A DNA stretch of 64,000 bases, from positions 310,001 to 374,000 of the forward strand of contig NZ_CP011267.1 of NCBI RefSeq assembly GCF_001006045.1, in the 5' to 3' direction. This stretch comes from Geoglobus ahangari (GTDB lineage Archaea; Halobacteriota; Archaeoglobi; Archaeoglobales; Archaeoglobaceae). This document shows positions 23,403 through 27,734 of this stretch, piece by piece (the first letter of the stretch is position 1; each line of letters starts with the position of its first letter). The notes below the pieces were generated by a model. That model was not told the DNA's origin and did not search any database. It worked only from the letters and a program-made list of their open reading frames with translations. The translations under genes were made by a program, and so were the position numbers.

Positions 23403-23880
23403 CTACAGCCGTAGCGTTGGATTGTATCTGATATCCACTATTTCGAGGAAGTCGACCTTTTTGAAGTCATCGTCGAAAGTGGCTATTTTCTTTATTGCCG
23501 TAGTGCTTGCAGGTTGCGGCTATAAGAGCGTCATTTGGAAGTAAACCGTAAGCCGTGGTTGCATCAAACATCTCTTGATACGTTGCAGGAGGCAAGACTT
23601 TAATCTCCCAGTAGTCGAGAACACTCGAAACATCAGAAATAACCTCCTTTGCTATTTCCACTGTAATGTTTGGATTCTCTCTAAGGTGGCGCAGGAGATC
23701 GTAGTGCTTTTCAATTCCGGTCACATCACTCGCCTTTATTTTCACAAGCACGTACACGACCTCTTCAATGACATTCGTTGATGTAACCAGCAAAGCATCA
23801 ATCCTTTCAAAAACATCCACACCATCTACAAAAAAAGCCAAAAAGGCTGAGCTATCCACGAAAATGTGTTCTTCTGTCAT
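23403..23880 (-). pseudogene. vapC: PIN-domain toxin VapC, frameshifted near the C-terminus
   Basis: PIN-domain endoribonuclease of a VapBC pair. The intact frame runs from the ATG at 23880 ([20 protein letters not shown]) to a TGA at 23467. The expected continuation lies in another frame and ends at 23403: IKKIATFDDDFKKVDF and onward, which contains the last conserved acidic patch (TFDDDF). One extra base near 23495-23497 (reading GGCAATAAAG instead of GGCATAAAG) accounts for the shift. The in-frame product ends abnormally (NKENSHFRR). Earlier PIN residues (FVDSSAF; NDALIAATC) are intact. GAGGGATG sits seven bases before the chosen ATG, inside the antitoxin gene. A sequencing error is possible. 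Confidence 0.8.
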
Positions 23881-24055
23881 GAATTTCATCCCTCAGCTTT
23901 AGCAGTTCATCTCCCTTCATTTTTCCGTATTTCCCTTTAAGGTGGTCTATCTCCCTCTTTATTTCTACCTTGATTTTTTCTCCTTCTTTTAGATTTACTT
24001 TTTCGAGGAGTCTAAGAACTCCATTCTCATAAACGGCTTCAACTACTTTAGGCAT
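23852..24055 (-). CDS. vapB: Antitoxin of the VapBC pair (AF2212/DUF104-like)
   Basis: A 67 aa protein beginning [20 protein letters not shown], typical of the AF2212/DUF104 antitoxin family: a short beta-rich N-terminus of the form '[17 protein letters not shown]', then [10 protein letters not shown] and a charged helix. It should neutralise the PIN protein encoded immediately downstream, with which it overlaps by 29 nt. AT-rich TATA sequence at about 24073-24085 suggests a leaderless start. Confidence 0.85.
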
Positions 24056-24143: not shown

Positions 24144-25439
24144 TTAATCCATGCTCACGCACTTCTCAACTATTCCGCTCCACTCCTCTCCATAGCCCCT
24201 TTCAAGCGGGATTATGCAGTAGATTGTGAACGTTCCCTCCTCTACGCCCCCACTGATGTATCCGAAAGCGCCAGAATAGGAGTTGTCCACAATCATGTAG
24301 ACTCCCGGAGAGATCTCGTTCCCGTAAACGTCCCTCGCCCCTTCAAGCTCGTAGTAGAGCAGGTTTCCGAGGGTTTCTCTGAAAGCCTCAGCGTTGTCAC
24401 CTATTCTGACGATTGCCGCAGCGTGATCGACGATGCCGGGAACTGATGTATCCACTCCAACCACGTATGCTTCAATGCCGAAGTGTCTGTAAAATGCTAC
24501 CTCAAGCGTCGCCATGTCCTCGCAATCTCCAGCTTTTTCGCTGAGCGTCTCGGCTGGAGTCTGCCTGTAATCTTTCCCTTCCCTGCCGTCACCCACCTCA
24601 AGCCCGACAATCGTGTTTTCAGCCTCCTCATCGTCATACCTGTAGGCAACGTTGTTCTCCACCCAGTAGAAAAACTCCTGAGCCTCCCCAATGCTGAGCT
24701 TCCCGTTCCTGTCAGCATCAAAGCTCTCGAAGAATTCTGCAACGCTGTCGGGGATCAGCTCAGAGCTCGTGCTTTCCTCGCTGACGATTTCCCTCTCAGC
24801 AAGGGGTGTGTAGCCCTCAACCTGAGACACGAGGTTTTCCCTGTACTCAGAGAGGGTGTCGGCAAGCTGCTGAGTTGCGCTGGAGAGGGCGTAGATCGTC
24901 TCAACCTCAGCCTCGTCAATCCCAGCCCTCTGCAGGGTGTTGAGATTTGCGTTCAAAAAATCCGCAAGCCCCTTCCAGTCGTCGGCATTTTCTCTGTAGG
25001 CCCTTTCAAGGAGTTCGACCTTCGGAAGTGCAAGCTCTGCGCTTTCATCAAGCATTTTGTCAAGGAGGGAGCTTCCGAGCTCCCTGACGTTTGCCGTCTT
25101 GTAGGAGAGGGTCGCCCACCTGTCCTCATACTCAATGAGCGTTCCGAGGAATTTGGCGTCTTCGTCGCTGAGATGGGGCTTTACCTCCCCGTACACCTTC
25201 CTCGCCTCGCTCACGTACTCCTTAGCCATTATTGCAGAGTTTCTCGCACCATCGTAATCGTCGTTGATTATAGCTTGCATGCTCTCCTCGACGCTTCTGT
25301 CTGCAGCGCTAATAAGCTCCGCAATTCTGTCCACGCTTCCCTGAACATCTCCCTGAACGTTCTTCTCATCCTCGCTGCAGCCGAGTGAGAGTATGCTGAG
25401 GAGCAGGAGGGAGAGAATAATAAATGAGGGGGTTTTCAT
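24144..25439 (-). CDS. Transglutaminase-like lipoprotein with EF-hand
   Basis: A 431 aa exported lipoprotein. The signal peptide ends in the lipobox LSLGC with Cys21. A helical region follows (about 30-210), then an EF-hand-like calcium loop DADRNGKLSIGE at 241-252. A transglutaminase/papain-like core comes after it: Cys306 in KAGDCEDMA, His339 in IVDHAAAI, Asp385 in MIVDNSYSG. This is the complete Cys-His-Asp set of archaeal transglutaminase-like proteins, which are often proteases or crosslinking enzymes on the outer cell surface. The gene begins five bases after the caspase-like gene ends, so the two form an operon. Its substrate is unknown. Confidence 0.82.
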   Translation of the reverse strand: MKTPSFIILSLLLLSILSLGCSEDEKNVQGDVQGSVDRIAELISAADRSVEESMQAIINDDYDGARNSAIMAKEYVSEARKVYGEVKPHLSDEDAKFLGTLIEYEDRWATLSYKTANVRELGSSLLDKMLDESAELALPKVELLERAYRENADDWKGLADFLNANLNTLQRAGIDEAEVETIYALSSATQQLADTLSEYRENLVSQVEGYTPLAEREIVSEESTSSELIPDSVAEFFESFDADRNGKLSIGEAQEFFYWVENNVAYRYDDEEAENTIVGLEVGDGREGKDYRQTPAETLSEKAGDCEDMATLEVAFYRHFGIEAYVVGVDTSVPGIVDHAAAIVRIGDNAEAFRETLGNLLYYELEGARDVYGNEISPGVYMIVDNSYSGAFGYISGGVEEGTFTIYCIIPLERGYGEEWSGIVEKCVSMD

Positions 25440-25444
25440 TCACA

Positions 25445-27718
25445 TCATCCCAGAAGGTCGCTTATGATGAAGTAGATCTTCACGATGACCTTCACGACCT
25501 CAACCTTGACGCTCTCCACAAAGCCCACACCTGAGTACTGGATCTCCCCGTTGCTGTAGGCCTTCTGAACCTCTGCCACGGGGTCGTCGGAGCTTATGAT
25601 TCTCCTCACAGTCTCCTCGCTCAAACTCGCTCTCGCAGTGGCGTCGTTCAGCTTCCCCTTCTCGAATTCGTTTATGTAGGCGTTCTCCACAACCATGTAG
25701 ATGTCCATCACGCTGCCATCGTCCATCAGGATCTCCACGTTCACCCTCGTGTTGCCGAGCCAGTCCTTCACGAACCCCGGAACCAGATGCGTGTTGTTGT
25801 TGTACCAGTCCTTCTTCTCAACCATCAGGGCGAACAGGTCTCCCGAGGCGATCAGCTCCGAAATCTCGTCCTCACTCAGGATGGGGCTGTCGGAGAGAAT
25901 CAGGGTTTCGTTCGCCACGTCAAAGACGGGAGTGAGCTCCAGCACCAGCTCTGGACGGGGTGGCTCTTCCACAACCGGCTTTTCAGCGTCTATCACCCTC
26001 GGGATGCTGCCCGTGGATATTAACAGCATCTCGACGGTGAACGGTCTGAACATCTCCGGCTGGTCGAAGGACAGCTCTATGACGTTCTCCCTGCCCAGAA
26101 TTCCTTCGTCATAGATTGGAAAGACTACCTCGTATGCGTCAAGGTCTGGCAATTCGTCAAGAGCGTAAACAGGCTCGATTATCTCCGGTTCGAGCTCGAA
26201 TTCGTTCAGATGGAGTGTGACGTTCCCCAGAAACTCGTAAGTCAGATCCTCCTCGATTATTTCCGTTGGCGGTAGGATCATCAGGCTGATGTAGGGCACG
26301 TTGTCGTCTGTGGTGTTCAGAACTTCCAGAAAGTCCTCATCGAGAATCCACACATCCTCATTCTCCAGCTCCTCGTTTTTAACCGGGACTGGCTGCTTTA
26401 CCGGGTCATTTATGAGCAGATCGAGTGCCTTTTCCGTCTTCTCAAGGTTGCCGTGATCCGTGACGAAGATCACAAGCTGCTCATCCTTGTTCATCTTCCC
26501 GGAGAGATCCTTTATGGCGTTCCACAAGGCCTGCTTCGTTCCGGGCCCATCCACATAGGGATTGGCAGCGCTTCTCCCTGAGCCTGCCAGCACAACGATG
26601 TCCTCATCAGAGAAGCCCTGTCCCTTCAGCATGTCCACGAAGCCCTTAATCTCAGTCCAGTCGTAGGTGTCGTCGGGGTCTCCGGCGAAGACTATCGCGT
26701 GCTTGCTCTTCACCTCACTCCCATCGGCATTCTTCCCAAGCCGCACCTTGTCCCCCTCACCCTTAGCCTTGTACTGGGTGTGCTCGCTTCTCTTGTCCAC
26801 ATATCCATTGTACCTTTTATTCGCATACACGCCATACTCGTCCTTTTTCTCCACATTTCTGGCAATCTCCTTCGCAGACTTTCCGCTCTTGAGTCCCTCA
26901 ATTACTTCCCTCGAAAACGGATCTACCTTCACGCCCACACTCGACTCGTTGTAGCCGTAGGCAACCTCATCATGCTTCGCAGCAGATACAACTGCAATAT
27001 CACCATCGATCTTCTTCAGAATGTCGTCAGTCATTCCTCCCCCAAAGCACTGCTGGAAGAAGATGAGCATGTTGGCAAACCCCTTCTCGGCTATCCACAT
27101 CTTGAGCATGTTGGCAAGCTCGAAGTCGTAGATGTTGGCTCCACTCTTCGTAACAATGCTGCTCGACTTCGTCTCAGGCTGATCGAAGAAGTAAGAGCAC
27201 TTGTCTGAATCCTCCTTAACAGGCACAGCCTCAACGTAAACGTTCACAACGAACTTCCCCGGAATCACGACGCTGTAAAACCTCTTTTTCAGCGTTTTGT
27301 CAACCGTGAACTTCGCACTGCCGAGATAATCGTCGGGATCGACTGGCGGGTTGTCCACGTCCGTGGCCTTGATCTCAACCTCCAGATCCACAGGCCAGCA
27401 CTCTCGCACCCTGTAAAGAATCTGCATGACCTCCTTGCCCTCCTTGCTCTTCGGAACGATCTTTCCGCTCACAGTGTCATGATCGTACTCAAAGTAGGTG
27501 TAGTAGCCCTGCCCATCCTTCGCACTGCCAGTGGCTTCGAAGCGAATGTCGGACTTGCCGTTCCACCCATCATCGAAGTTGTCGAGAGGTGTGAAGCTGA
27601 GCAGCCACACCCTCACCTCAACCGCAGGAGGGCCGGGAGGGTCATACTCAGCGTTTCCAACACCTGCCAAGCTAACAAGGAGAATTGCAGAAGCGATAAA
27701 CAAAACAATACCTCTCAT
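25445..27718 (-). CDS. Secreted caspase/legumain-like (C13-type) protein, permuted motif order
   Basis: A 757 aa exported protein. The signal peptide MRGIVLFIASAILLVSLAG ends near GNA, and the ATG at 27718 is chosen with GGGGTG just upstream. Residues about 33-150 look like a C2-type beta-sandwich. The caspase-fold motifs then appear in reversed order. First a Cys segment, MLIFFQQCFGGGMTDDIL (Cys224), followed by DIAVVSAAKHDEVAYGY. About 115 residues later come the first strand KHAIVFAGDPDDTYDW and the His segment QLVIFVTDHGN (His422). In canonical C13/caspase domains the His precedes the Cys. The C-terminal ~320 residues are beta-rich and acidic, with no further Cys. It is the first gene of an operon with the transglutaminase-like lipoprotein. 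Confidence 0.78.
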   Translation of the reverse strand: MRGIVLFIASAILLVSLAGVGNAEYDPPGPPAVEVRVWLLSFTPLDNFDDGWNGKSDIRFEATGSAKDGQGYYTYFEYDHDTVSGKIVPKSKEGKEVMQILYRVRECWPVDLEVEIKATDVDNPPVDPDDYLGSAKFTVDKTLKKRFYSVVIPGKFVVNVYVEAVPVKEDSDKCSYFFDQPETKSSSIVTKSGANIYDFELANMLKMWIAEKGFANMLIFFQQCFGGGMTDDILKKIDGDIAVVSAAKHDEVAYGYNESSVGVKVDPFSREVIEGLKSGKSAKEIARNVEKKDEYGVYANKRYNGYVDKRSEHTQYKAKGEGDKVRLGKNADGSEVKSKHAIVFAGDPDDTYDWTEIKGFVDMLKGQGFSDEDIVVLAGSGRSAANPYVDGPGTKQALWNAIKDLSGKMNKDEQLVIFVTDHGNLEKTEKALDLLINDPVKQPVPVKNEELENEDVWILDEDFLEVLNTTDDNVPYISLMILPPTEIIEEDLTYEFLGNVTLHLNEFELEPEIIEPVYALDELPDLDAYEVVFPIYDEGILGRENVIELSFDQPEMFRPFTVEMLLISTGSIPRVIDAEKPVVEEPPRPELVLELTPVFDVANETLILSDSPILSEDEISELIASGDLFALMVEKKDWYNNNTHLVPGFVKDWLGNTRVNVEILMDDGSVMDIYMVVENAYINEFEKGKLNDATARASLSEETVRRIISSDDPVAEVQKAYSNGEIQYSGVGFVESVKVEVVKVIVKIYFIISDLLG

Positions 27719-27734
27719 CCATGGCACCCCAATT

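Follow-up and report, generated by a model that had tools for sequence, protein, structure and literature searches.

A probable natural circular permutant of the peptidase C13 (legumain)-like domain in an exported archaeal protein

Clan CD of the cysteine peptidases takes in caspases, metacaspases, legumain, gingipains, separase and the GPI transamidase, among others. In every description known to us the chain order of the catalytic domain is strand 1, then His, then Cys. One gene of the window (the whole 64,000-nt stretch of DNA analysed, from a heat-loving archaeon) encodes these elements in another order, with the Cys first, and the question is whether its product carries a circular permutant of this fold, as the initial annotation proposed. 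The features discussed are as follows.

25445..27718, minus strand: putative permuted-protease gene, 757 aa from the ATG at 27718
27650..27718, minus strand: putative signal peptide, residues 1-23 (ending GVGNA, followed by EY), assigned by eye; predicted helix at 2-18
27212..27628, minus strand: C2-like domain, residues 31-169, by VIA-align and Foldseek on the structure model
26705..27163, minus strand: Cys half, residues 186-338, corresponding to the canonical C-terminal half and first in the chain (HMM positions 119-250; PF01650 positions 125-214; hhalign)
27047..27049, minus strand: TGC codon of Cys224, candidate nucleophile (QQCFGGG), aligned with the canonical catalytic Cys and invariant in 18/18 rows
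26447..26704, minus strand: His half, residues 339-424, corresponding to the canonical N-terminal half from strand 1 to His-Gly and second in the chain (HMM positions 78-122; hhalign)
26453..26455, minus strand: CAC codon of His422 in DHG, candidate catalytic base, aligned with the HG His at canonical HMM position 112 and invariant in 18/18 rows
25994..26401, minus strand: beta-rich region, residues 440-575, from strands in a low-confidence model
25448..25858, minus strand: SCP2-like (sterol carrier protein 2 fold) domain, residues 621-757, by VIA-align and Foldseek on the structure model
24144..25439, minus strand: next gene downstream, transglutaminase/DUF553 lipoprotein-like with an EF-hand-like stretch (PF04473, 6.1e-9; PF01841, 1.8e-7)

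The open reading frame begins at a GTG at 27727; the aligned homologue starts agree with the ATG at 27718, from which residues are numbered here; the residue numbers of the initial annotation prove correct on this count. Along the chain come QQCFGGG, VVSAAKHDEVAYGY, the strand-1 stretch SKHAIVFAGD and VIFVTDHGN, so that all the motifs are present and in the order initially described. Cys occurs at positions 107, 174 and 224 alone, leaving none after His422. The sole His N-terminal to Cys224 is H80; it lies in the C2-like part and its column holds W in another genus. No His ahead of Cys224 is invariant among the homologues, of which we found 18 distinct full-length proteins, and a second conserved His before the candidate nucleophile is thus absent. 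Every one of the 18 has its Cys half before its His half, and the usual order of strand 1, His-Gly and Cys occurs in none.

Three sequence methods were applied (our own canonical HMM, hhalign, and Pfam PF01650), with no permuted sequence added to the references. The closest canonical relatives found are secreted C13-like proteins from a Muribaculaceae MAG (our loci L043/L050) and from the phylum of that MAG (L074, L075, L078 and L079), and archaeal ones (L032, L094 and L106). Of these, all but L043 were the 8 canonical-order seeds of the HMM, which has 262 positions; its consensus places the His of HG at 112 and the Cys at 157. In 18/18 full-length homologues this HMM matches in two pieces that overlap by a few positions at most, the Cys piece preceding the His piece; two of the 18 add a third, negative-scoring piece that was ignored. 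The first piece runs from profile position ~119-122 to 187-250; the second begins at 3 (in the window genus, at 77-78) and ends at ~117-124, so the pieces are complementary, covering ~3-118 and ~119-250. For the window protein the values are 119-250 at an iE of 6.1e-11, then 78-122 at 1.9e-8. The match of the His half begins at HMM position 3 in the 15 homologues outside the window genus, while in the 3 proteins of that genus its first ~75 canonical positions fall under the reporting level. Real halves of the 18 proteins score 22.9-45.9 bits and 1,800 shuffled halves reach 5.4 at most; these scores, together with the iE values, put the match beyond chance.

When the trimmed halves were rejoined with His before Cys, all 18 proteins gained more than 5 bits and the median rose from 34.8 to 72.3. 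A cut-point scan of the window protein started from 35.0 bits in the native order and reached a plateau of ~57 for openings anywhere from about residue 322 to 386, while the best of 200 shuffled copies scored 4.5. Simple rotation with the end pieces left on joined the two halves into one match in the window protein only, and not in the other 17, in our view because ~35 residues at the new ends then sit as an insert. In the converse control, rotating canonical domains at this point cost all 8 of them about half of their best score for a single match.

In hhalign, the alignment of permuted proteins matched the canonical alignment twice with confidence: query 179-268 with template 3-113 (Prob 98.0, E 1.5e-13; the His half) and query 13-158 with template 122-252 (Prob 95.9, E 5.3e-9; the Cys half). 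The two jointly span the template once, and a third alignment has a Prob of 0.1. Pfam gives a compatible picture. Rotation raised the PF01650 scores of the three proteins sent, out of 18, from 36.2 to 45.8, 36.9 to 48.1 and 30.9 to 42.0 bits, the best stretch crossing the join. A Thermococcus fragment without the first half matches PF01650 positions 2-44 (E 0.0076). In a PF01650 scan of the genomes, six homologues scored 15.7-23.2 bits, two of them above the cut-off. The full window protein matches PF01650 (Peptidase_C13) at 1.3e-7, its 31.9 bits exceeding the cut-off of 22.8, over profile positions 60-212; the domain alone matches over 125-214, which is the Cys half. We regard the extension over 60-125 as a chance alignment, as it falls on the C2-like domain and vanishes when the permuted domain is scanned alone. 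The window protein had no NCBIfam match, and a sequence search of the PDB returned only legumain (6xt5) at E 0.024.

Alignment also locates the join. The canonical chain reads DHGG, a loop, ESYICLWGN, LYDYNLANLL, then QCYSGGF and ETPQYISTPVSVGDD to its end; that of the window protein reads SSIVTKSG, ANIYDFELANML, QQCFGGGM and EHTQYKAKGEGDKVRLG, followed by KNADGSEVKS and then KHAIVFAGD through VTDHGN. The LYDYNLANLL to GQCYSGGFIDDL stretch and the tail of the canonical relatives align with the Cys half of the window protein, and their YAVILSGG to IDHGG stretch with its His half. In this order the ancestral tail adjoins strand 1 of the ancestor, and the loop that follows the catalytic His-Gly holds the new ends. 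To judge from the alignment, this succession of a canonical C-terminal tail (ETPQY and onward), a short linker and strand 1 has the look of joined ancestral termini. The canonical relatives have the usual order, other flanking domains and a DxDGxG-like stretch missing from the permuted proteins, and their CxSG is CFGG in the permuted proteins. Invariant in the 18 rows are C224, D421, H422 and G423, as well as H249 and H340; Q-C-F-x-G-G is conserved throughout, and the joining linker is mostly invariant (D, G, S, V, S), although identity falls to 42-45% between the rows that lie furthest apart. The motif filter had kept every full-length match, so these counts for Cys and His do not stem from it.

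The proposal of a circularly permuted C13/clan CD domain is thus borne out by three sequence methods and by conservation in 18 distinct proteins. Our main reading, to which we assign a probability of roughly three in four, is of an exported cysteine peptidase with a catalytic domain that is a circular permutant, of natural origin, of a C13 (legumain)-like domain. A short linker (about KNADGSEVKS) would connect the former C terminus to the former N terminus, and new termini would have been opened in the loop right after the catalytic His-Gly, most likely after a canonical domain had been duplicated in tandem and the outer halves lost. Homology, together with a reversed order that departs from a defining feature of the family, makes the protein a permuted offshoot of C13 and not an ordinary member.

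The alternative that survives best, though unlikely, is that the halves are leftovers of two C13-like domains that fold apart, in a pseudoprotease with a structural or binding role. Each half does keep its own homology, and the structure models are of modest confidence. The domain model (6 sequences, a 297-residue slice) has a pLDDT of 62.5 and a pTM of 0.69, with 99 of the 297 residues under 50. Foldseek of this model against the PDB gave no match at E <= 0.001 and no clan CD structure among the 50 matches listed, where unrelated ones dominate. VIA lists clan CD structures at low Z, mixed with unrelated alpha/beta folds that score equally: a SAVED-CHAT protein (8tl0, Z 5.2, slice 31-176), OaAEP1 (5h0i, Z 4.3), metacaspase 9 (8a53, Z 3.9, slice 27-176) and metacaspase 4 (6w8s, Z 3.7, slice 185-297), all weak. 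Separate matches of the Cys half and of the His half to clan CD structures would fit a permutation, but the unrelated folds do as well. Against two leftovers, the pieces are complementary with one breakpoint in 18/18 proteins, the Cys, the Asp-His-Gly and most of the linker are invariant at such low identity, and either half alone would expose an incomplete sheet. The model, moreover, folds both halves as a single alternating alpha/beta unit. Its six strands (63-68, 87-92, 163-166, 186-193, 221-224 and 261-269 in slice numbering) stand where b4-b5-b6-b1-b2-b3 would be expected in legumain numbering, the naming being ours and the model mediocre. The full-length model (pLDDT 54.8, pTM 0.39) has only the C2-like and SCP2-like domains recognised.

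Swapping the large and small subunits of caspase-2 does not part His from Cys, both of which stay in the large subunit. Such a swap has been engineered by joining the ancestral termini, and the accessible part of the report describes the man-made enzyme as active (PMC7760212); the window protein, in contrast, is cut between His and Cys. As far as that source goes, the fold tolerates permutation, if with another cut, and permutation is compatible with activity. A natural precedent for a changed His-Cys order is offered by circularly permuted papain-like peptidases, which, from the portion of the source available, have the papain-like and not the caspase/legumain fold (PMC10318531). A natural permutant of the caspase/legumain fold was not found in the literature searched, which is weak evidence of absence since most subscription papers lay outside its scope; nor was one found in the literature searched on archaeal C13 or on this combination of domains. 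In the searchable text of individual papers, 'circularly permuted' does not occur in PMC3482391, neither 'caspase' nor 'legumain' is mentioned in PMC12667903, permutation concerns ribosomal proteins in PMC8580257, 'circular permutation' appears only in a reference title in PMC9098846, and the permuted fold named in a reference title of PMC2900308 is papain-like.

The window protein comprises a putative signal peptide, the C2-like domain, the permuted C13-like domain, the beta-rich region and the SCP2-like domain. Export, claimed in the initial annotation, is supported by the putative signal peptide, judged by eye and from the predicted helix only; a lipobox Cys is absent from it. The C2-like domain said to precede the protease domain is seen as a predicted beta-sandwich, matching the cPLA2 C2 domain (1rlw) in VIA-align (Z 10.8, rmsd 2.9, 120 aligned residues) and Munc13 C2B (6nyc) in Foldseek (E 8.7e-5). 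Its acidic residues D49, D50, D57, D79 and D81 are invariant in the 18 rows; the acidic loop DVDNPPVDPDD is kept, among five aligned proteins, in the window genus only. C107 and C174, the only other invariant Cys residues, could form a disulfide linking the C2-like domain to the start of the permuted domain. As for the long beta-rich tail, strands are predicted in the low-confidence model at 456-459, 476-482, 500-504, 513-518, 527-534, 545-551 and 561-568, and Pfam has no match for region 440-575, but the last ~137 residues are SCP2-like, and the tail is not simply beta-rich. This predicted fold resembles 3bdq (VIA-align Z 11.1, rmsd 3.2, 106 aligned), the C-terminal part of alkylsulfatase 4axh (VIA-align Z 11.3) and 4jgx (Foldseek E 1.7e-4). 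The predicted folds are thus like those of C2 domains (of cPLA2, Munc13 and ferlins) and of SCP2 domains, with Z of 9-11; neither has a Pfam match of its kind, so the relation to known C2 and SCP2 domains is distant. Since Pfam with E up to 10 yielded no SCP2 family, only DUF3834 at 0.0081 and under its cut-off, we use the name SCP2-like and do not assign the domain to the SCP2 family.

The SCP2-like domain has relatives of its own (loci L008-L031): in a search with the whole protein, 88 of 294 genomes of the phylum match at E <= 0.001, in most cases over residues ~620-755 only. Of six relatives examined, the majority are separate proteins of ~160-180 aa that seem to carry a signal peptide; a Pfam scan of one (L008) was without a match. 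A secreted archaeal SCP2-like family is possible. The window's own genome holds a second such relative, at G000:C1:580359-580634 within a 274-aa frame.

In the permuted domain as we picture it, the two halves would close into one alpha/beta domain and bring Cys224 and His422 together. His422 would activate Cys224, with the backbone of the Cys and Gly forming the oxyanion hole as in legumain, and peptides would be cut, or ligated as legumain can, outside the membrane. In the accessible part of PMC9098846, the base and the oxyanion pocket of legumain come from D147-H148-G149 and C189, and D147 is also involved in ligation. With Peptidase C13 (legumain and the GPI transamidase subunit PIG-K; PF01650) the window protein shares the aligned Cys and Asp-His-Gly, and both halves are homologous; it differs in the reversed order, the new ends after His-Gly, the C2-like and SCP2-like fusions and a changed pocket residue. 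Retention of the complete DHG triplet makes both hydrolysis and ligation conceivable; as the pocket position differs (E187 of legumain is a variable Q/N/S), Asn specificity should not be assumed. The C2-like domain would enter before the first half and the beta-rich and SCP2-like parts leave after His-Gly; with the new ends beside the active site, these flanking parts would be anchored at the catalytic face. The protein is probably a lipid- or Ca2+-associated, predicted active cysteine peptidase, and the binding of lipid or Ca2+ probably serves to place its active site or to gate it.

Slightly less favoured than two leftover halves is a permuted clan CD domain that folds but is no peptidase, its Cys and His being used otherwise in a lipid- or glycan-handling or regulatory protein. 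Lipids are suggested by the C2-like and SCP2-like domains on either side, CxSG has become CFGG, and the position two before the Cys is the variable one (that of E187 in the legumain pocket; PMC9098846). We consider this improbable given the conservation of the Cys, the Asp-His-Gly and Q-C-F-x-G-G in all 18 rows, QCxSGG being common to most canonical relatives. Far more speculative, and very improbable, is a lipid-directed transpeptidase of permuted caspase/legumain fold, an archaeal counterpart of the GPI transamidase of C13 type, in which the C2-like and SCP2-like domains, fused at the active-site face, would present a lipid or lipid-linked acceptor to which exported proteins would be cut and joined. 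Least probable of all is an ordinary-order C13 peptidase with its first His in the C2-like part and an unrelated later DHG: the full-length Pfam match does start at profile position 60, in the C2-like part where H80 sits, but this reading is contradicted by the start of the domain-only scan at 125, by the unconserved H80, and by the independent match of the DHG half to the profile start.

A natural permutation of the caspase/legumain fold would be unusual. If the permutation is real, the clan CD fold can accommodate chain termini in its active-site loop, and the family would provide a thermostable natural template for permuted proteases. It would also explain why searches that assume the usual order report only half of such an enzyme, as Pfam does here. 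The fused domains of lipid-binding type make control of an extracellular archaeal protease by lipid or Ca2+ a testable idea.

A scan of the genome contigs with the single protein gave 9 pattern matches and no relative; the domain alignment then gave 7 loci. Searched with this alignment, 392 genomes of the phylum yielded 6 matches, 5 of them full-length: the window genome, two of the same genus and two of another genus of the family. The sixth (G198) is a partial match, at E 2.7e-4, to a canonical-order protein. The gene is present in 3 of the 7 genomes listed for the window genus. Among Thermococcaceae, 16 of 94 genomes match, 13 with full-length proteins, and widening the search to 115 genomes of their phylum returned the same 16. 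The remaining copies, kept outside the 18 full-length proteins, are a frameshift-split gene (G467; L070/L073), one truncated where its contig stops (G397) and a remnant of 33 aligned positions (G476; L072); the frameshift and the remnant indicate loss of the gene in some Thermococcaceae. In the midpoint-rooted tree, the window genus (100/100), whose identity to the rest is 42-45%, stands apart from a group (100/100) of two Archaeoglobales MAG proteins and the 13 Thermococcaceae proteins. From its sequences this appears to be one old permuted family with a patchy distribution. Viral contigs gave 53 pattern stretches and no relative, and tblastn against plasmids gave no match, so these searches lend no support to a viral or plasmid origin.

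Canonical C13-like domains were met along the way. Another genus of the same family has one in a 2,314-aa frame with Ig-like-looking repeats (L032; G291:C48). One archaeal family (f13) has canonical C13 domains scoring 155-191 bits (L083-L092, L104 and L105), and the three of its proteins examined in full have a periplasmic-binding-protein-like region ahead of the C13 domain.

The transglutaminase-like gene adjoins the permuted-protease gene in all three loci of the window genus, where it is a possible operon partner; it is not beside the gene at the other 16 of the 19 loci compared. The Thermococcaceae neighbours form two sets of shared surroundings and not one operon, and by eye they resemble metabolic and transport genes. 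A conserved partner gene was accordingly rejected, and with no general partner the permuted protease probably acts alone or with dispersed partners. Elsewhere in the window, a PIN-domain gene at 23470-23889 (PF01850, 3.3e-10) is possibly the toxin of a toxin-antitoxin pair.
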